This document shows, in pieces, positions 1-9,774 of a stretch of DNA of 10,705 nt (position 1 is its first letter; each line of letters opens with the position of its first letter). This DNA comes from Pseudomonadota bacterium. Its GTDB lineage: Bacteria > Bdellovibrionota_C > UBA2361 > OMIW01. The translations under genes were made by a program, and so were the position numbers. The stretch spans positions 1-10,705 of the forward strand of contig OMIW01000113.1 in NCBI GenBank assembly GCA_900299205.1, read 5' to 3'. The notes under the pieces are model-generated. The model was not told the origin of the DNA and did no database searches. It worked only from the letters and a program-made list of their open reading frames with translations.

Positions 1-164
1 GACTCACGGGAAATTCCAGCTCTCGTTTCAAGCGAAACTGAACGTCGCACGTAACCAGGAGTGTTTACATTCGCGATATTATTTGAGAGCACACTGATGA
101 GTGCCTGATGGGCACTCAGCGCACCTGATGCGGTGTTCAGGATTTTCGCCCCATAATTAACCAT
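1..164 (-). CDS. flgK: Flagellar hook-filament junction protein FlgK, N-terminal fragment (cut by window edge)
   Basis: Only the first 54 codons are present; the gene continues past position 1. The visible peptide begins MVNYGAKILNTASGALSAHQ and then shows SNNIANVNTPGYVRR, the conserved N-terminal D0 helix motif of the rod/hook axial family. The NTPGY form is typical of FlgK and distinguishes it from FlgF and FlgG (NTTGF). FlgK (HAP1) is exported by the flagellar type III apparatus and forms the first ring between hook and filament. The ATG at 164 is firm because an in-frame TGA lies three codons upstream. A G-rich stretch (AGGGGG, 174-179) sits about 12 nt before it, which is long spacing for a Shine-Dalgarno. 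It follows flgN by 71 nt, so the chaperone and its known client are adjacent and probably co-transcribed. No separate promoter was recognised in the gap. Confidence 0.95.
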   Translation of the reverse strand, partial: MVNYGAKILNTASGALSAHQALISVLSNNIANVNTPGYVRRSVSLETRAGISRE

Positions 165-988: not shown

Positions 989-1004
989 AGCAAGAAAGGT
1001 GCCG
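989..1004 (-). promoter_or_regulatory. Sigma-54-type (-24/-12) promoter for flgN-flgK
   Basis: The minus strand reads CGGCACCTTTCTTGCT. It has GG and GC separated by exactly ten bases, GGCAC at -24 and TTGCT at -12, close to the RpoN consensus TGGCAC-N5-TTGCA. It lies in a gap with no coding sequence and points at flgN, with transcription expected to begin near 978. A closely similar element occurs before flgG (6507-6522). Sigma-54 control of flagellar genes is known in many proteobacteria and depends on an enhancer-binding activator that is not in this window. Confidence 0.65.
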
Positions 1005-2211: not shown

Positions 2212-2583
2212 CTACACGACCTCATCGACCTTCCGCTCTCGCTCAGCCGTCCTGACCATATCGTCTGCAAAAGCCTTTTTGAGACCAATACTTTGGGAAT
2301 GCGCTATTTCCTTCGAAAGCTCCTGATTAAGCATATCCCGATAAAACTCCGCCTCATTCCCTCCCTCAAGAAGCCCTCCATTCGGAACGGAGCTCCACAT
2401 CACATCAAACATTTGCTGAAGCAGAAGTGCCTCAAATTCCTCTGCTGCCTTGTTAATCCTCTCAGGTGAATCGGAAGGCGTTGAACCGATTGAGAATGAT
2501 TGACCTTTATCAACGCCGAGTGGCATCTCCAAGCTTGGGAGTCCGTCGTTGAGCAATCCTCCTGAAAGTGGAGATGTCTTCAT
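2212..2583 (-). CDS. flgJ: Flagellar rod-capping protein FlgJ, rod-binding domain only
   Basis: A 123-residue protein that matches the N-terminal half of enterobacterial FlgJ. The segment AAEEFEALLLQQMFDVM (46-62) and the following EAEFYRDMLNQELSKEIAHS are the rod-binding domain signature. The C-terminal glucosaminidase domain found in the roughly 310-residue E. coli protein is absent, as in many delta- and alpha-type lineages, so the peptidoglycan-opening activity must come from another enzyme. The ATG at 2583 has GAGG six bases upstream. ATG 2586 is too close to it, and GTG 2595 has no ribosome site. The flgI stop codon is itself part of this Shine-Dalgarno (TGAGGGG), which suggests translational coupling. 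Confidence 0.9.
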   Translation of the reverse strand: MKTSPLSGGLLNDGLPSLEMPLGVDKGQSFSIGSTPSDSPERINKAAEEFEALLLQQMFDVMWSSVPNGGLLEGGNEAEFYRDMLNQELSKEIAHSQSIGLKKAFADDMVRTAERERKVDEVV

Positions 2584-2591
2584 CATTCCCC

Positions 2592-3749
2592 TCACATCAC
2601 TATCATGTCTGCGTGTAAAGCCCCCGCTTTTTTGAGAGCAGCAAATATTGATATCAGATCTCGGGGAGTCGCACCGATGGCGTTTAGACCTTTCACCAGC
2701 TCCCCGAGGGTCGCCTCGCCCCCTACCAATTCGAGGCGTCGCTTCTCCTCACCGACCTCTAATTCGCCGTTGGTCACAACAGCAGTCTGACCACCTCCTG
2801 CGGGTGCTTGTGGTTGTGAAACCTGCACATCATTTCTAATAGAGATACTGAGGTTCCCATGAGCAAGGGCAACGGGACTCAGACGAAGATCGTCTCCCAT
2901 AATAATGGTGCCAGTCCGCTCGTTTACCACTATCTTTGCCCCAATATCCTGCTCGACTTCGGTTTGTTCTATGAACGAAACGGCTCCAATCGGATCCTGC
3001 ATCAGATGTGTGGGAAGCGACACCTCCACAACACCTGAATCACGGGCTACCGCCAGGGGAGCTCCGAGTCGATAGTTGAGTGCTAATACAACCCTTTTCA
3101 TGGTCGTGAAGTCTGGCTCTCGGAGAACAACCCGTACCGAGTGACTCCGAAAGATATCAACCGATATGGATCGCTCGATCGTCGCTCCCCCGGTAATAAC
3201 CCCGACGGTGGGATGGTTCCTTACTGCAGCATCTCCTCCCCCTTCGATTGTAAACCCACCAATCGCGACCGCCCCCTGACCGATTGCATACACATTCCCA
3301 TCAGCCCCTCTCAGTGGAGTGAAGAGCAGAGTACCTCCTTGAAGACTTTTGGCATCACCCATCGAGGAGAGAGTCACATCCAGCTTGCTTCCCGGTCGTG
3401 AGAACGGAGGTAGAGTGGCAGTAACAAGAACCGCCGCTACATTCTTCACCTTAATATCTTGAGAATCGACCCGAATACCAACCTTCTCAAGCATGTTGCT
3501 CAAACCTTTCGTTGTAAATTCGACGCTCCGACCATCACCGGTCCCGTTGAGACCGACGACGAGTCCATACCCGAAAAGCTGATTTCCTCGAACTCCCTCA
3601 ATATCAGCCATGTCTTTCAGACGAGCCGCTTTTGCTGAAGATGAAATCGCAAAGACGAGAGCGATATTAATCAAACACAGGACGGACCAATCGGACCAAC
3701 TCAGGGCGTCATCCCTCCGCTTTGTAGGCTGCTTTAACCTTATATTCAT
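2592..3749 (-). CDS. flgI: Flagellar P-ring protein FlgI precursor
   Basis: 385 residues, near the usual 365-380. A basic N-terminus and a hydrophobic stretch (about 23-36) end in SSSAKA-A, a standard signal peptidase I site near residue 41. The mature protein starts with the hallmark RLKDMADIEGVRGNQLFGYGLVVGLNGTGD. Other family blocks follow: LPPFSRPGSKLDVTLSSMGDAKSLQGGTLL, the VVVNERTGTIIMGDD-type block near 275, and the C-terminal GGEATLGELVKGLNAIGATPRDLISIFAALKKAGALHADM. FlgI forms the periplasmic ring around the distal rod in the peptidoglycan layer and needs FlgA for assembly. The ATG at 3749 has GAGG six bases upstream and lies 18 nt after flgH. The N-terminal region before the signal core is longer than usual (about 20 polar residues), so a shorter real start is possible, though no better one is visible. 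Confidence 0.97.
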   Translation of the reverse strand: MNIRLKQPTKRRDDALSWSDWSVLCLINIALVFAISSSAKAARLKDMADIEGVRGNQLFGYGLVVGLNGTGDGRSVEFTTKGLSNMLEKVGIRVDSQDIKVKNVAAVLVTATLPPFSRPGSKLDVTLSSMGDAKSLQGGTLLFTPLRGADGNVYAIGQGAVAIGGFTIEGGGDAAVRNHPTVGVITGGATIERSISVDIFRSHSVRVVLREPDFTTMKRVVLALNYRLGAPLAVARDSGVVEVSLPTHLMQDPIGAVSFIEQTEVEQDIGAKIVVNERTGTIIMGDDLRLSPVALAHGNLSISIRNDVQVSQPQAPAGGGQTAVVTNGELEVGEEKRRLELVGGEATLGELVKGLNAIGATPRDLISIFAALKKAGALHADMIVM

Positions 3750-3767: not shown

Positions 3768-4628
3768 TTAGAACGGCCACAATTTCATCAGCGCTCTCAT
3801 CAGCCATCCCGGAGACTGAATCAAACCAATCGTTCCTTTGCCGTAGTAGTCGATACGCATATTGGCAACCTTTGCGGAGTCCACCTCATTACGAGAGTTC
3901 ACATCACGGGGACGAACGAGTCCTGACATAACCATAATCTGCTCTTCGTCATTGACCGCAATTATCTTCTCTCCCTGAATCCGTAAGATACCGGACGGAA
4001 GAACCTCCTGAACCATACACGAAATAGTTCCCCTTAATTGCCCTCTCCGCAGCGTCTCTCCTCGTCCCTCAACTTGCGTGGCTGTAGTCGCATCGATGAG
4101 AGCCGTCGGATCGACATCGGGATTTGAGCGGGGTACCGATTTCTCAAGACCAAGAAATGCAGCTATCTCAGCGGTTATACTCGATTGAGAATTGACCCGA
4201 GTGTCTGCCTGTTTTCGTCCTTCCGTAACTTCAGTTACCAGGACCGTAACGAGGTCCATCGGCTGAAATGCCCGAAAGTCATGAAAAAGCGAGGTTGCGC
4301 CCTCCCCCTCCCGCCAGAGGGATGGGTTGGCCGATACCTCACCGTCGCGAAGGGGCCCACGATAGGATGGCTGGAGTGGAACCAAATCGGGAACTCGCTC
4401 GAGAGAATCCACAGCCGATCTTTCACCCTCAACAAGATGAAGATGAGCACGAGGTCCGTCTGGAGACTCACCACCTGAGGCTGTAACGCCCTCAGGCCTG
4501 AGAAGGGCTCGGGTATACTCTATTGCAGGGACTCTGGGCGGGATCGGTGAGGAGGACGTGCAGCCGAGTGCTACCATACTCAGAAAACTAAACCATCCCA
4601 AACGACCGCTAAATCGCTCGCTTGCCAT
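3768..4628 (-). CDS. flgH: Flagellar L-ring lipoprotein FlgH
   Basis: 286 residues. The N-terminus carries a lipoprotein signal ending in VALGC, so Cys23 should be lipidated and anchor the protein in the outer membrane. The NPSLW element (near 99-103), then FHDFRAFQPMDLVTVLVTEV, then IQGEKIIAVNDEEQIMVMSGLVRPRDVNSRNEVDSAKVANMRIDYYGKG form the FlgH core and C-terminal signature. FlgH makes the outer-membrane bushing of the rod. The protein is longer than the common 220-240 residues. The extra length lies between the lipid-attached cysteine and the NPSLW motif, a polar linker of about 75 residues. The ATG directly abuts the flgA stop codon (TAG-ATG), and its GGAGGT ribosome site is within the end of flgA, so the two are translationally coupled. 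Confidence 0.96.
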   Translation of the reverse strand: MASERFSGRLGWFSFLSMVALGCTSSSPIPPRVPAIEYTRALLRPEGVTASGGESPDGPRAHLHLVEGERSAVDSLERVPDLVPLQPSYRGPLRDGEVSANPSLWREGEGATSLFHDFRAFQPMDLVTVLVTEVTEGRKQADTRVNSQSSITAEIAAFLGLEKSVPRSNPDVDPTALIDATTATQVEGRGETLRRGQLRGTISCMVQEVLPSGILRIQGEKIIAVNDEEQIMVMSGLVRPRDVNSRNEVDSAKVANMRIDYYGKGTIGLIQSPGWLMRALMKLWPF

Positions 4629-5615
4629 CTATTGGACCTCCACCAAACCAGGCTCAACGATCGTACCCTGTAAAATCCGCTTTGATATCTCATTCCGAAC
4701 GCGTATCTTACCCCCTCGTCGCCCACCCTCGAGTGCGCTCCCCGTTGCCGTTGCAGTGAATCCACGACCACTAAACTTAATCGTTACCGATGAGCCGGCT
4801 GTAATATCGTGAGGAAGGACAAGATCCGGAGACCGGAAAAAGTCCCCCGTTGAGAGCGTTCTTTTAACCGCATGACCGACTATGCCATCTCGTGTTGATG
4901 CGACGTCCCGGGGAAGACTTTTGGTGTCGAGTCGAGCCATTACCACATCCTCAAAAGAAACCACGTTCCCCACCGAAAGCTGCCGACTTGCAACCGGCAT
5001 ATACATAAACTCATCGAGCGTCCCGACAAGGGTAAGCTGTTCAACCTCTCCCGATTCTGATCGGGCCTCGACGATTATTCTGCTCAGACCGACCCGTTGT
5101 CTCTCAACCGATAGGACTCTCATCGTGGCTGGTCCGACAAAAAGCCGACCGTTACCATCGTGGGAGAAACTCCTCACTCGGGCCTCCCGTCCACTCCCTC
5201 GAAGATATTCATCGAGCACGTTTTGGAGCTCGCTCTGCCCGATATCTCTCCCTGCCCGTTTGATAGTGACCCGTTCCGGTATCGAATAACCGATAGAGCC
5301 CGACTCGAAAGCTGCTCCGCGAAGCTGCTCGAGGAGTTGATATGCACTGAGATCGCTCTCCTGACCCGGTCGCAGGTGGGGTATAAGGATCACCCGCTTG
5401 AGCGCGACTGCCTTTTCATCGTTAATTTCGCTCGAGCTCTCAACTATGCCGATGTCACCCAACGTGACCACCGCTCCCATTACTGTGCTCGAAGCTCGAA
5501 CCCGAAGAGTAATCGGGAAGGTTTCCGAGTGAGCTTCAAAGGCGAACAGGAGAGCAAGAATGGAGAAAAGGGTCACAACTCGCACTGCTCGGCTCTCCGA
5601 GAGAAATATCCCCAT
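4629..5615 (-). CDS. flgA: Flagellar P-ring assembly chaperone FlgA
   Basis: 328 residues with a signal peptide (hydrophobic 13-27, cleavage near AHS at 28-30), so the protein acts in the periplasm, where it helps FlgI polymerise. The C-terminal half has the SAF/FlgA module: YMPVASRQLSVGNVVSFEDVVMARLDTKSLPRD (about 205-238), GIVGHAVKRTLSTGDFF, then the closing part AGSSVTIKFSGRGFTATATGSALEGGRRGGKIRVRN (about 275-310). The N-terminal half, about 35-200, is less conserved, as is normal. Total length exceeds the 220 residues of E. coli FlgA and fits the longer delta-type form. The ATG at 5615 is preceded by GAGGAG at ideal spacing and lies 18 nt after the flgG stop. Confidence 0.93.
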   Translation of the reverse strand: MGIFLSESRAVRVVTLFSILALLFAFEAHSETFPITLRVRASSTVMGAVVTLGDIGIVESSSEINDEKAVALKRVILIPHLRPGQESDLSAYQLLEQLRGAAFESGSIGYSIPERVTIKRAGRDIGQSELQNVLDEYLRGSGREARVRSFSHDGNGRLFVGPATMRVLSVERQRVGLSRIIVEARSESGEVEQLTLVGTLDEFMYMPVASRQLSVGNVVSFEDVVMARLDTKSLPRDVASTRDGIVGHAVKRTLSTGDFFRSPDLVLPHDITAGSSVTIKFSGRGFTATATGSALEGGRRGGKIRVRNEISKRILQGTIVEPGLVEVQ

Positions 5616-5633: not shown

Positions 5634-6422
5634 TCAACGCTTCATATTGATCGCGAGACTGAGCATCTCATCGGAGGTGCTTATGCCCTTTGAATTCGCC
5701 TCATACGCGCGCTGCGCCGTTATCATATTCACAACTTCACTGACGACACTCACATTACTACTCTCAAGGAATCCCTGATTTAATCGGCCAAAACCAGGCT
5801 GCTGAAAAAGAGCGATTATCGGAGCCCCAGAGGATACCGTCTCTTCAAATTGGTTTCTGCCAACCGCCCGCAGCCCCGCATTATTGGGGAACCTTACTGC
5901 CGTTAACTGACCGACGGCCTGCGCGGCAGCGTTTCCAGGCTGACGAACACTAACCGTCCCATCCTCCCCGATGGTAATCGCCTGAGCATCATTGGGTATC
6001 GTTATTCCGGGCCCGACCTGATATCCATCTGACGTGACCAAACTCCCATTTTGATCGAGTTGAAATGATCCAGAACGGGTATATGCGAATGTCCCATCAG
6101 GTTTTATTACCTGAAAAAAACCATCTCCCTCGATAGCGACATCAAGAGGTGCCCCTGTATTGACAGAGTCTCCCTGACCGAACATCTTTTGAACCGCGAT
6201 GGTTTTGACCCCGAGCCCTATCTGAACACCGCTCGGATTCACCGATGTCTGAGAGCTCTGGGCCCCCGGTTCGGTTTGATACTGGTACATTAGATCTTGA
6301 AATGCAGCTCTCCCCTTTTTGAAACCGGTCGTGTTGACGTTCGCCAGATTGTTGGCGATGACGTCAATATTCGTTTCCTGGGCGTTCATCCCGGTGGCTG
6401 CGGTGTAGAGTGCTCGGATCAT
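5634..6422 (-). CDS. flgG: Flagellar distal rod protein FlgG
   Basis: 262 residues, the normal length (about 260). It opens with MIRALYTAATGMNAQETNID and NLANVNTTGFKKGRAAFQDLMYQ, then PGAQSSQTSVNPSGVQIGLGVK, a FlgG-specific segment. Further along are DVAIEGDGFFQV, the FAYTRSGSFQLDQNGSLVTSDGYQV block and a C-terminal helix with SNVSVVSEVVNMITAQRAYEANSKGI. It builds the distal rod that crosses the peptidoglycan and outer-membrane rings encoded by the genes after it. It has only a weak ribosome site (AAGAAGACCAAC). It begins a separate transcription unit, since 180 bp and a sigma-54-type promoter separate it from flgF. Confidence 0.98.
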   Translation of the reverse strand: MIRALYTAATGMNAQETNIDVIANNLANVNTTGFKKGRAAFQDLMYQYQTEPGAQSSQTSVNPSGVQIGLGVKTIAVQKMFGQGDSVNTGAPLDVAIEGDGFFQVIKPDGTFAYTRSGSFQLDQNGSLVTSDGYQVGPGITIPNDAQAITIGEDGTVSVRQPGNAAAQAVGQLTAVRFPNNAGLRAVGRNQFEETVSSGAPIIALFQQPGFGRLNQGFLESSNVSVVSEVVNMITAQRAYEANSKGISTSDEMLSLAINMKR

Positions 6423-6602: not shown

Positions 6603-7361
6603 TTACTCACTTCGAGATACCTGATTGATGGCTCCCTCGTTCATTTGATCTATCGATTGAGTCATCTTGGTGTAAGCTTCAAAGGCTCGGTGCGCCGCTA
6701 TTAGCTCAACCATACCAGACACAACAGAGACGTTTGCCCCTTCAACCGTTTGCGTAATGAGGTCTGGCTCGACCGGTGTCGCCGATCCCGTCTCGGAAAG
6801 ATTAAACCGCGCGGCCCCCTCAGGAACCAGCTGATTCAGGTCGTTTACTGTGACAACTCGGATTGCCCCGACCGGAACCCGCCCCGACGTCACCTGACCA
6901 GAAGCGGATATTTCAGCATCAGCACCCGTCGTAACAATCGGACCACTATCGCCGACGACCTCAAACCCCTCGGATGTGACCAGGCGGCCATCAGCGGAAA
7001 GGGTGAAATCTCCCGCACGGGTATACCGGACCCCATTTGGCGTGTTTATTGAAAAAAATTGATTCATCCCTCTCAGCGCAACATTCAGCGGATTTCCGGT
7101 CCTCAGAAGGGAACCGGGAGAAAAATCGGTCACGCTCTCGATATGGGTAACCGCAGTTACACGTTCTTGATCCCGCGCCGCGAATGGATCAGCCGGACTC
7201 GCAGCTGCCGCGAGAGTCTCATCAAATTTTTGAGTTTCACCCGATAACACCTCTTTCTTGAACCCCGTCGTCGAAACATTCGCGAGATTGTTCGCGACCG
7301 CATCGAGCCGCCGAATTTGATAAAGCCCCCCTGACGCTGCAACGTACGTTCCCGAGTCCAT
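6603..7361 (-). CDS. flgF: Flagellar proximal rod protein FlgF
   Basis: 252 residues. The N-terminal axial motif LDAVANNLANVSTTGFKKE (19-37) and the C-terminal NVSVVSGMVELIAAHRAFEAYTKMTQSID place it in the rod/hook family. The central blocks NPLNVALRGMNQFFSINTPNGVRYTRAGDFTLSADGRLVTSEGFEV are those of FlgF and FlgG. It is FlgF, not a second FlgG, because it begins MDSGTYVAASG, lacks the FlgG-specific PGAQSS segment and is followed by a genuine flgG. It forms part of the proximal rod. A very strong ribosome site (GGGAGGGAGGGG) stands before the ATG. It follows the coiled-coil gene by 51 nt and is probably in the same transcript. Confidence 0.92.
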   Translation of the reverse strand: MDSGTYVAASGGLYQIRRLDAVANNLANVSTTGFKKEVLSGETQKFDETLAAAASPADPFAARDQERVTAVTHIESVTDFSPGSLLRTGNPLNVALRGMNQFFSINTPNGVRYTRAGDFTLSADGRLVTSEGFEVVGDSGPIVTTGADAEISASGQVTSGRVPVGAIRVVTVNDLNQLVPEGAARFNLSETGSATPVEPDLITQTVEGANVSVVSGMVELIAAHRAFEAYTKMTQSIDQMNEGAINQVSRSE

Positions 7362-7412: not shown

Positions 7413-8441
7413 TTACCGCGAACGTCGCAACCCTCCGAGGACTCCCAGTCTCGGGTCAATCGAAGATCGCAATACCGATCGACCGTCTGCTGATGACTGC
7501 ACCTCTCTTCTCTTGTGCGCCGCAGCAAGGAGAAGTCGAACCTGATCAGCGGGCAGCACACTCCTTTTGACCAGATTTCCCCCTGCGGATTGCTGCTCAT
7601 TACGTCCGTCCTCCAGAGGTAAGCTCTCGCGGAAACCGCTAGGTGCGGGATTTTCAGTTCTGTCGATTGAGATCTGATCAAGCAATGAAGAGGCCGCTAC
7701 CCGCTCAAGAGCCCGACGCTCCGGCTGGTTCTCCGAGGTGCGACCTACCTCTTCACTGAGTGAGGAAATTGATTTTTCTTTCGACGCGACAGGGGGTTTT
7801 CGCGCAATCTGTTCCTGGAATGCGCTCTCGTTACTTTCTGAGTTTGCGCGAACACTACTCCTGTGGGCCGAGACCGTTTTAATCGCCCGAGCCACACCTT
7901 CAGGTTCCTCAAACCAGTGGCGGCTGAGGTTGCTCCCGTCGCGTTTACCCTCCGACGATTGGGACTGCTCATCACTCGCCGGAATTGTGTTTACCTTCTG
8001 AGACGCATCGCTCGCGCGACTGGGTAAAGCGTTGGACTCCTCAAGATTGCGAAGTTGATGTTCACGGGTCTGATATCGATTCAGTGCGGCATTAAGGGCG
8101 TCGAGCGCTTTTTGCACTTTTGCCATTGCGACATCAACACCCCCTCGGGTCTCCTCAGCGCGCGACTGCACCCGATGAATCCGCTTTTCGCACGATTCGA
8201 GATCAAACAACAGCTTTTCAAGCGATTCTTGTCGTCGGATCAATTGATCATTCAACGATTTTCCCGCCCCCTCAGCCTCGCGAATTAAACTGCGAATAGT
8301 TCCCTCAAGCTCGCCAAGCTGTCGAAGGCCCCGAGGGTTGGTTCGATTTCGAAGAACTCGATGGACAAACAGAAGAATTGACCCCATAAGAGCGATATCC
8401 GCTCCGAGGCTCAGCATGGAAATAGTCGTCGGCGAACCCAT
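7413..8441 (-). CDS. Membrane-anchored coiled-coil protein, first gene before flgF; function unknown
   Basis: 342 residues with three parts. Residues 8-29 form one hydrophobic segment (ISMLSLGADIALMGSILLFVHRV) followed by RNR, so the protein is probably anchored with its bulk in the cytoplasm. Residues 37-135 have heptad-like Leu spacing and many charged residues, a long coiled coil. Residues 136-295 are polar, Ser/Glu/Arg-rich and probably disordered. A short helix around 297-310 (LPADQVRLLLAAAHKRRE) is followed by a basic tail. A transmembrane segment plus coiled coil plus short C-terminal module resembles DUF2802/DUF6115-type proteins of flagellar and chemotaxis clusters, but no diagnostic motif allows me to say so. 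The ATG at 8441 has GGGAGAAG rather far upstream (about 12 nt). A structural or regulatory flagellar role is inferred only from position. Confidence 0.8.
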   Translation of the reverse strand: MGSPTTISMLSLGADIALMGSILLFVHRVLRNRTNPRGLRQLGELEGTIRSLIREAEGAGKSLNDQLIRRQESLEKLLFDLESCEKRIHRVQSRAEETRGGVDVAMAKVQKALDALNAALNRYQTREHQLRNLEESNALPSRASDASQKVNTIPASDEQSQSSEGKRDGSNLSRHWFEEPEGVARAIKTVSAHRSSVRANSESNESAFQEQIARKPPVASKEKSISSLSEEVGRTSENQPERRALERVAASSLLDQISIDRTENPAPSGFRESLPLEDGRNEQQSAGGNLVKRSVLPADQVRLLLAAAHKRREVQSSADGRSVLRSSIDPRLGVLGGLRRSR

Positions 8442-8466
8442 GTGAATCGTCTTCTCCCGTCAATCG

Positions 8467-8534
8467 ACCGGTGCTTCTACCGGACATCTGTCAACTTGCT
8501 GGCACTTCTGCGACCGGTTATAATACTTCCGGTC
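8467..8534. repeat. Cluster of four CCGG-centred elements around the hemF -10 box
   Basis: ACCGGT (8467-8472), ACCGGA (8479-8484), ACCGGT (8513-8518) and CCGGTC (8529-8534) lie within 68 bp. Two of them are in identical CGACCGGT copies (8465-8472 and 8511-8518, 46 bp apart). One pair (8513-8518 and 8529-8534) brackets the TATAAT at 8519-8524. Four CCGG words in this length are far more than the quarter of one expected by chance. It could be an operator for a regulator of hemF; no known family's site is recognised. Confidence 0.35.
8496..8524 (+). promoter_or_regulatory. Sigma-70-like promoter toward hemF
   Basis: A perfect TATAAT (8519-8524) has TTGCTG (8496-8501) exactly 17 bp upstream, giving a full -10 and a three-of-six -35. 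Transcription would begin near 8531 and yield a leader of about 185 nt. A second, weaker option lies closer to the gene: TTCATT (8665-8670), 18 bp, TATAGT (8689-8694). Confidence 0.45.
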
Positions 8535-8699
8535 TTTGTGTCGTCTTATGGTGAACTTAGCTCCTGTGGAGCGGGCCTACTATCGTCACGACCCCAGGAC
8601 CTCTCACCCTTTTTCGTGACGGCGCAGCCCCCCGCCATTACCAAGGCGCTGATTGCATCGCCAATTCATTCGGTATTGCCGACGGGGGTATAGTCGGAT

Positions 8700-8716
8700 T
8701 TGCAAGGATCTTGCCA
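8700..8716 (-). promoter_or_regulatory. Near-consensus sigma-54 promoter for the flgF transcription unit, overlapping hemF start
   Basis: The minus strand reads TGGCAAGATCCTTGCAA, against the RpoN consensus TGGCAC-N5-TTGCA: GG-N10-GC is exact and only one of the eleven consensus positions differs. It points at the coiled-coil gene and flgF, with transcription expected near 8690 and a leader of about 250 nt. On the opposite strand the same bases are the ribosome site and first base of the hemF start codon. Part of it, GCAAG-GAT-CTTGC, is also an inverted repeat. Confidence 0.6.
8702..8714 (+). repeat. Inverted repeat GCAAG-GAT-CTTGC over the hemF ribosome site
   Basis: A 5-bp stem with a 3-nt loop that covers AAGGA, the apparent Shine-Dalgarno of hemF, immediately before the ATG at 8716. 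In the hemF mRNA it could partly hide the ribosome site. The stem is short, so the effect would be modest. It may simply reflect the overlapping -24/-12 promoter elements on the other strand, GGCAA and TTGC. Confidence 0.3.
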
Positions 8717-9774
8717 TGGCGCGCCTACCCCTCAACCATGAGGCTACCGAGCCACCTACCGCTGACTTCCCTGAGTTTGTTCCCGATAAGACAACCGTTC
8801 AGCCTCGAGGACACTTTTCTTCTGATTACGCCCCCTTGGTCGCCTCGGGCGGCTCAAAACTGCGGAACTATTTCCAGACGGTCTTTCGTGAGGTCCAGTC
8901 GCGTTACTGCGAAGCCTTGGAGCAAATCGAGCCTGAATGCCGGTTCTCCCAAGACGATTGGGTTCGAGAGAAGGAGCAGGTCATCACTGAGGGCCAAGGA
9001 ACCACTCGGGTCCTCAGTGGAGGTGCCGTTTTTGAACATGCCGTCGTTGCACTCAGTTCAGTGCGGGGCCTGCTCCCGCCTGCGATGAGCGAAAAGCTTA
9101 TCGGCTCCCCTTGCGAAACTTCCTTTGCGGCGGATGGGGTCTCCGTCATCGTTCACCCCTTGTCACCGATGATCCCCACCACGCACGCCAATGTTCGGCT
9201 TCTGACGGTAGGGAACAAAACATGGTTCGGCGGAGGCGCCGACCTGACCCCTTATTACCTATTCGAGGATGATGCTCAACTCTTTCATCGGCACCTCCAC
9301 GACATCTGTGAGTCAACCCGACCCGGATGGTATCAATCGTTGAGAAAATGGTGTGACGAATACTTTTACCTACCTCACAGGAGAGAGGCACGGGGCATCG
9401 GGGGAATATTTTACGATTACATAGGTCGGGATTCTTTGGACGACCTCCTCGATGGTGCTCGTCTTACCGAGCTTCTCGGACGGGAGCTTGCAGGATGCTA
9501 TATCCCGATCGTTGAAAAAAGAAAGGGTATTTCGTGGGGAGATGATGAGCGACTCTTCCAGGAGATTCGTCGCGGACGGTACGTTGAGTTTAATCTTCTT
9601 CATGACAGAGGCACCCAGTTCGGGTTACAAACAGGTGGCAGGACGGAATCCATCCTCGCTTCCCTCCCGCCCCGGGCGCAATGGTCGTACGGATATGAGC
9701 CTCAGGTAGGCTCCCGAGAGGCGAGACTGATCGAGGCATTACGTAATCCGCGAGATTGGCTAAAAGGCGCTTAA
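8716..9774 (+). CDS. hemF: Oxygen-dependent coproporphyrinogen III oxidase HemF
   Basis: A 352-residue cytoplasmic enzyme that uses O2 to decarboxylate coproporphyrinogen III to protoporphyrinogen IX in heme synthesis. The family signature KWCDEYFYLPHRREARGIGG followed by IFYD is complete at 211-234. Also present are HPLSPMIPTTHANVR (147-161), WFGGGADLTPYY (170-181) and GRYVEFNLLHDRGTQFGLQT (287-306), continuing into GGRTESILASLPP. The start is ATG 8716, with AAGGA seven bases upstream. The frame can be opened 63 nt earlier only with a TTG and no ribosome site. It is about 50 residues longer than E. coli HemF (299), mainly at the N-terminus. The RVLSGGAVFEHAVVALS segment (98-114) departs somewhat from the usual GGVFEKAGVN-type block. 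It is divergent from the flagellar operon and not part of a heme operon here. Confidence 0.97.
   Translation: MARLPLNHEATEPPTADFPEFVPDKTTVQPRGHFSSDYAPLVASGGSKLRNYFQTVFREVQSRYCEALEQIEPECRFSQDDWVREKEQVITEGQGTTRVLSGGAVFEHAVVALSSVRGLLPPAMSEKLIGSPCETSFAADGVSVIVHPLSPMIPTTHANVRLLTVGNKTWFGGGADLTPYYLFEDDAQLFHRHLHDICESTRPGWYQSLRKWCDEYFYLPHRREARGIGGIFYDYIGRDSLDDLLDGARLTELLGRELAGCYIPIVEKRKGISWGDDERLFQEIRRGRYVEFNLLHDRGTQFGLQTGGRTESILASLPPRAQWSYGYEPQVGSREARLIEALRNPRDWLKGA

Follow-up and report, generated by a model that had tools for sequence, protein, structure and literature searches.

The stretch of DNA analysed here (the window; 10,705 nucleotides) is the entire contig C113 of a genome of 2.45 Mb, which is assembled in 206 contigs and is about 90% complete. 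Its minus strand carries a flagellar operon that runs from ORF1 through flgF, flgG, flgA, flgH and flgI to a gene for an FlgJ-type protein (Table 1), past which lie a DUF1189 gene, flgN and the first part of a gene for a Flg_bb_rod protein, which runs off the end of the contig. The plus strand encodes HemF, whose gene diverges from ORF1, and a small protein that contains a bacterial PH domain. In the whole order, and in the majority of class members, ORF1 is the gene that opens the flgF operon, and its product belongs to no family above the cut-off in Pfam or NCBIfam. A weak match to DUF2802 is seen for ORF1 of two relatives only.

Table 1. Coordinates of the genes, sites and candidate signals discussed in the text. 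Positions are those of the window unless a locus and contig are named.
Feature	Position	Strand	Remarks
Predicted sigma-54 promoter, TGGCAAGATCCTTGCA	8701..8716	-	-24 GG at 8715-8714; -12 GC at 8703-8702
Second sigma-54-like site, CGGCACCTTTCTTGCT	989-1004	-	In the DUF1189-flgN interval, 228 bp before flgN
ORF1	7413..8441	-	First gene of the operon; coiled-coil-like protein
flgF, proximal rod protein	6603..7361	-	Pfam Flg_bb_rod, FlgE/F/G D1, Flg_bbr_C
flgG, distal rod protein	5634..6422	-	PF00460; 61-76% identity to order relatives
flgA	4629-5615	-	Named by reading the translation and by gene order
flgH	3768-4628	-	Named by reading the translation and by gene order
flgI	2592-3749	-	Named by reading the translation and by gene order
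Rod-binding FlgJ-type protein	2212-2595	-	PF10135
Candidate downstream enhancer, inverted repeat CGTCACGA / TCGTGACG	8584-8591 / 8614-8621	-	In the flagellar leader
hemF, oxygen-dependent coproporphyrinogen oxidase	8716..9774	+	PF01218, E 7e-108; NCBIfam NF003727, 348.7 bits (cut-off 297)
hemF Shine-Dalgarno sequence AAGGA	8704..8708	+	Inside the sigma-54 site
Candidate hemF -10 TATAAT	8519..8524	+	Best -35 TTGCTG at 8496, 3/6; speculative
Alternative candidate hemF -10 TATAGT	8689..8694	+	Poor -35 match; speculative
Sigma-54-like site before flhB-flhA-flhG-fliA	L133 (G000:C127), 7345-7360		Directly before flhB
Sigma-54-like site before fliC	L134 (C142), 9032-9047		127 bp before the flagellin gene
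Sigma-54-like site before flgB-flgC-fliE-fliF	L136 (C166), 11-26		Slightly weaker
Sigma-54-like site before NtrC-type activator gene	L138 (C125), 7441-7456		Slightly weaker
Near-consensus site TGGCACCACCCTTGCT	L137 (G000:C86), 3261-3276		Directly before an unassigned 207-aa ORF, possible start at a downstream ATG

The original prediction placed a near-consensus RpoN site over the AAGGA sequence and the first base of the ATG of hemF, and both its letters and its coordinates proved right. Read on the minus strand from 8716 to 8701, the site has one mismatch to TGGCAC-N5-TTGCW, and with at most one mismatch allowed this consensus is matched twice in the window, here and at 989-1004. Loose sigma-54 matches in the window number 30 against 34.7 expected, which is the level of chance, and the 2.45 Mb genome contains 12 matches to TGGCA-N6-TTGCW, compared with 9 to a reversed control. 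Since these counts lie near chance both in the window and in the genome, the motif alone is weak evidence, and it is position and conservation that set the site beyond chance. Four of the 12 genomic matches are correctly oriented upstream of a gene, namely the hemF/flgF site and three others that precede fliC, flhB and an unassigned gene, respectively.

For the comparison with relatives, the operon was located by FlgG in the order (28 genomes) and in the class (45 genomes), and the DNA upstream of it was then compared across families other than the window's own. Of 38 upstream stretches, 4 are cut by contig ends and 34 are intact. All 34 of these other intact loci of the class have GG-N10-GC close to ORF1 or upstream of it, on the strand that encodes flgF, which upholds the assignment of the site to a sigma-54 promoter of the flagellar operon. 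The distance from the site to the called start of ORF1 ranges from -20 to 347 bp, mostly 100-260 bp, and is 260 bp in the window. Scored with a position weight matrix built from the published consensus, from which the GG-N10-GC criterion is independent, 34 of 35 loci (the window included) have a best score that stands out from dinucleotide shuffles with p <=0.045, the exception being L175, where the site lies at the edge of the scanned stretch. When the loci of the order are aligned by this element, GG, CA and TTGC do not vary and AAG follows GGC in about nine out of ten, while the flanks carry near-zero information; YGGCAAG-N4-TTGCA therefore represents a promoter-specific form that marks the ORF1-flgF-flgG operon in the order. 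Class members outside the order mostly have TGG-N-N-N-N6-TTGCA, with C or T after GG. Loss of the GG-N10-GC pair in close relatives that keep the gene order had been named beforehand as evidence against the promoter, and the pair is kept in all six of them (G004, G010, G021, G023, G026, G027). From its sequence and conservation, 8701-8716 is thus predicted to be a sigma-54 promoter driving the flagellar rod genes, a promoter ordinary in kind.

The machinery that such a promoter would use is encoded in the genome, which has rpoN (E 1.7e-61) and five strong sigma-54 activator genes. Two of the activator genes are neighbours on contig C125, and the product of one of them is closest to FlbD, although under the cut-off of the FlbD model. 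Sites similar to that of the window precede flhB, fliC, flgB and an NtrC-type activator gene (Table 1), and together they would constitute a sigma-54 flagellar regulon, flagellin included; the site before flgN, like two of these, is slightly weaker than the matches to TGGCA-N6-TTGCW. The 207-aa ORF behind the near-consensus site TGGCACCACCCTTGCT has no match in NCBIfam. Near the flhB and activator-gene promoters, TTGACGGTC(A/G)TC is observed, upstream in one and downstream in the other, and this is possibly the site of the activator in this genome.

The predicted start of minus-strand transcription lies near 8690, and the flagellar leader behind it contains a second conserved pattern. In most families, TGACR half-sites are situated about 92 and about 123 bases past the -12 element, and in most of the sister family f11 they are situated 102 and 134 bases past it; YGTCA is often found at about 112, which gives rise to dyads such as CTGTCA-N6-TGACAG. 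Outside f11, 31 TGACR/YGTCA half-sites are counted against 9.0 expected, at near-fixed positions 31-32 bp apart, and within f11, 21 against 5.3 expected. The half-sites of the window occupy the same part of the leader as those of the relatives, but with other letters and another spacing. Two sites about three helical turns apart could suit a multimeric activator, and the leader half-sites are regarded as a candidate, and probable, downstream enhancer. The FlrC sites of Vibrio function as true enhancers, typically from a position downstream of the start (PMC6504787). The f11 leaders (L169-L176, L207) share a strongly conserved block, ATGCTAATTCAACTGGTTAGC, some 45-65 bp past the -12 element, and a fainter version of it (ATCAA..GGTTAG) is seen in the other families. 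This block could serve as a third regulatory site or represent a short upstream ORF.

On the opposite strand, a start of hemF at 8716 is supported, not proven, by Shine-Dalgarno spacing and by codon usage. Of 112 long ORFs, 48 have a word resembling a Shine-Dalgarno sequence ahead of their first ATG, compared with 15 of 112 for a control stretch, and codons 1-40 of hemF score +0.119 per codon, compared with +0.081 for the rest of the gene and -0.108 upstream. HemF proteins of the relatives are without the first ~45 residues. The reverse complement of a sigma-54 -12 element (GCAAGG) itself resembles a Shine-Dalgarno sequence. An upstream TTG start at 8653 was ruled out by codon usage. A scan of 8400-8900 for the sigma-70 consensus yielded no site, and the two -10 candidates in Table 1 are speculative; from TATAAT at 8519-8524, the hemF leader would, equally speculatively, be about 185 nt long and would overlap the flagellar leader. 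A plus-strand sigma-54 promoter for hemF was also considered for the window and rejected: the GG is lost, the plus strand reading TTGC at -24 and thus lacking GG-N10-GC, and a start at about 8726 would be inside the gene.

Whether relatives keep the overlap of promoter and hemF start had been named as a check, and they do not. In the same six relatives of the order, the divergent hemF lies behind an aminotransferase gene, which intervenes between it and the site, and the overlap exists in this genome only. The aminotransferase is closest to NCBIfam models of glyoxylate or pyruvate aminotransferases, all far under cut-off. The distance from the site to its gene is 45-58 bp in f11, 5 bp in G004 and 22-50 bp in others, and the gene is far away in still others; measured to the divergent ATG, the gap amounts to 5-58 bp in eleven relatives, and in others it is wider. 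The ~90%-complete genome yielded no orthologue of the aminotransferase, the best match having 23% identity; the gene is absent from this locus and could lie in an assembly gap. hemF adjoins the site here because the intervening gene is absent, and the overlap, which appears from the gene orders to be lineage-specific, would most simply be explained by loss of the aminotransferase gene. A search anchored on hemF with flanks of 1.5 kb misses the flagellar genes, since the aminotransferase gene intervenes, and a hemF search in GTDB contigs gave distant hemF only, with no flagellar neighbour within flanks of 3 kb. Across the class, a NarL-type response regulator (MxxxIIADDHVVLR...) recurs on the divergent side of the flgF operon (L182, L184, L185, L197-L201, L204, L206 and others), encoded on the plus strand and sometimes accompanied by a bacterial-PH-domain gene.

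In family f11, the site takes the form TGGCAAG-N3-CTTGCCA or a variant of it, so that GG-N10-GC can be read on both strands in 11 of 11 loci, including three with changed inner arms (AGGCAAAAGGTCTGCCA, AGGCAAAAGCCCTGCCA). The sigma-54 consensus is nearly self-complementary, and for this reason a single base, C for A at position 16, suffices for the reverse reading. Base 16 is C in all eight tabulated f11 loci, and in 27 loci outside f11 it is A in 25, T in 2 and C in none. In the reverse reading, the ATG of the aminotransferase-hemF operon is 45-58 bp away, and the TGAC sites come to lie in the classical upstream position. The palindrome might thus act as a two-way sigma-54 promoter, to which the same holoenzyme binds in either orientation and which a shared activator site opens in both directions, a tentative reading that we rate somewhat below even odds; for the flagellar operon this activator site would be a downstream one, for the aminotransferase-hemF operon an upstream one. 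Such a promoter would possibly argue for co-activation of flagella and hemF over simple antagonism. f11 is a single genus in the sample, and its two-way form may be one event kept by descent. In the window's own genome, the site before the activator gene on C125 (TGGCACGGGTGTTGCC) can likewise be read in both directions, which may be due to chance. As the mark of a transcription-factor regulon the palindrome was discarded, with 0-4 copies per genome, usually one, at the flgF locus. A literature search for two-way or back-to-back sigma-54 promoters returned nothing relevant, which is not proof of absence.

We favour an account, with a probability of about 0.88, in which a flagellar sigma-54 promoter conserved throughout the class is served by an activator bound in the leader, and in which loss of the aminotransferase gene has brought hemF onto the site. 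On this account, 8701-8716 would provide the -24/-12 element of the ORF1-flgF-flgG-flgA-flgH-flgI-flgJ operon, at which sigma-54 RNA polymerase would wait as a closed complex. The complex would most likely be opened by an NtrC-type flagellar activator (FlrC/FlbD-like) sitting on the paired TGAC-type leader sites, some 70-110 nt downstream of the start, and flagellar transcription would begin near 8690. In the ancestor, the aminotransferase gene, in some lineages aminotransferase-hemF, would have been transcribed divergently from nearby; once it was lost in the present lineage, hemF would have moved up, placing its Shine-Dalgarno sequence and ATG on the promoter.

What this arrangement means for hemF is a separate matter. 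It had been proposed that the closed sigma-54 complex blocks elongation into hemF, a proposal that finds no support in this genome and fits poorly with a genome-wide test in E. coli, in which no roadblock effect was seen at intragenic sigma-54 sites (PMC4591121). If there is any effect on hemF, promoter competition or converging polymerases would be more likely than an elongation roadblock. With TATAAT at 8519-8524, about 160 nt would be transcribed in both directions, as parts of the hemF and the flagellar transcripts, and the claim that the flagellar transcript runs antisense through the hemF leader gains support if hemF starts from there; with TATAGT at 8689-8694, two polymerases would compete for the same DNA, since this element would overlap the footprint of the sigma-54 polymerase. 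On these grounds the overlap could conceivably work as a regulatory switch, with hemF held down by the sigma-54 polymerase that occupies the flagellar promoter: the site is placed on the start of translation, flagellar transcription would overlap or traverse both candidate hemF promoters, and sigma-54 has been reported to repress promoters that it overlaps (PMC4551910, PMC4591121). We nevertheless consider a switch unlikely, given that the site meets the start in this genome only and is separated from it in the relatives, and that repression by intragenic roadblock was looked for and not seen in E. coli. The negative coupling of flagella and heme synthesis suggested in the original prediction suffers from the same lack of conservation, which does not bear out selection at this spot, and f11 hints at co-activation instead.

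The overlap may well be incidental, a result of aminotransferase loss without regulatory consequence for hemF, which is compatible with the favoured account and which we judge slightly better than an even bet. The gene-order comparison and the absence of the aminotransferase gene provide it with a simple history, and the overlap is not conserved; on the other hand, members of the order commonly have the site near the divergent start (at 45-58 bp in f11 and at 5-50 bp in other families), and because of this common closeness some interaction of the two units may be old. Far less probable is a reading of the dyad GCAAG-GAT-CTTGC not as a sigma-54 site but as an operator to which a dimeric regulator binds. 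The dyad does form a 13-base inverted repeat with perfect arms in the window, and a longer one in f11, but outside f11 the CTTGC arm is not kept, whereas GG, GC and TTGC are, and the three f11 loci that break the inner arms retain GG-N10-GC on both strands. The sigma-54 promoter thus remains the preferred reading of the site.

By this reading, a flagellar sigma-54 promoter with a probable enhancer can be traced, from sequence, through a whole class of uncultured bacteria. Its closest known counterpart is the flgFGHIJ operon of Vibrio cholerae, which has its own sigma-54- and FlrC-dependent promoter (PMC7064773); common to both is a sigma-54 promoter directly before the flgF rod operon, FlrBC dependent in Vibrio (PMC7064773, PMC6504787). 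The present case differs in that ORF1 precedes flgF, that a divergently oriented hemF or aminotransferase gene lies opposite the promoter, and that the form of the -24 element (YGGCAAG) is promoter-specific. In E. coli and Salmonella, sigma-54 sites likewise place a -24/-12 site on another transcription unit, and the documented effect of the overlapping sites is holoenzyme competition (PMC4591121, PMC4551910, PMC3844500); those sites are mostly inactive as promoters, whereas the site in the window belongs to a neighbouring operon as its conserved promoter. Should the f11 site work in both directions, an oxygen-dependent heme enzyme would be tied to flagellar control in the sense opposite to the antagonism proposed earlier, and how a single polymerase chooses its direction at a single site would become directly testable. 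The f11 palindrome is like the bidirectional promoters of E. coli, which are pseudo-symmetrical and bind polymerase in either of two exclusive orientations (PMC12825309). It would differ from them in being activator-dependent, the text of that report containing neither sigma-54 nor RpoN, and a working f11 promoter would extend bidirectional promoters to activator-dependent transcription.
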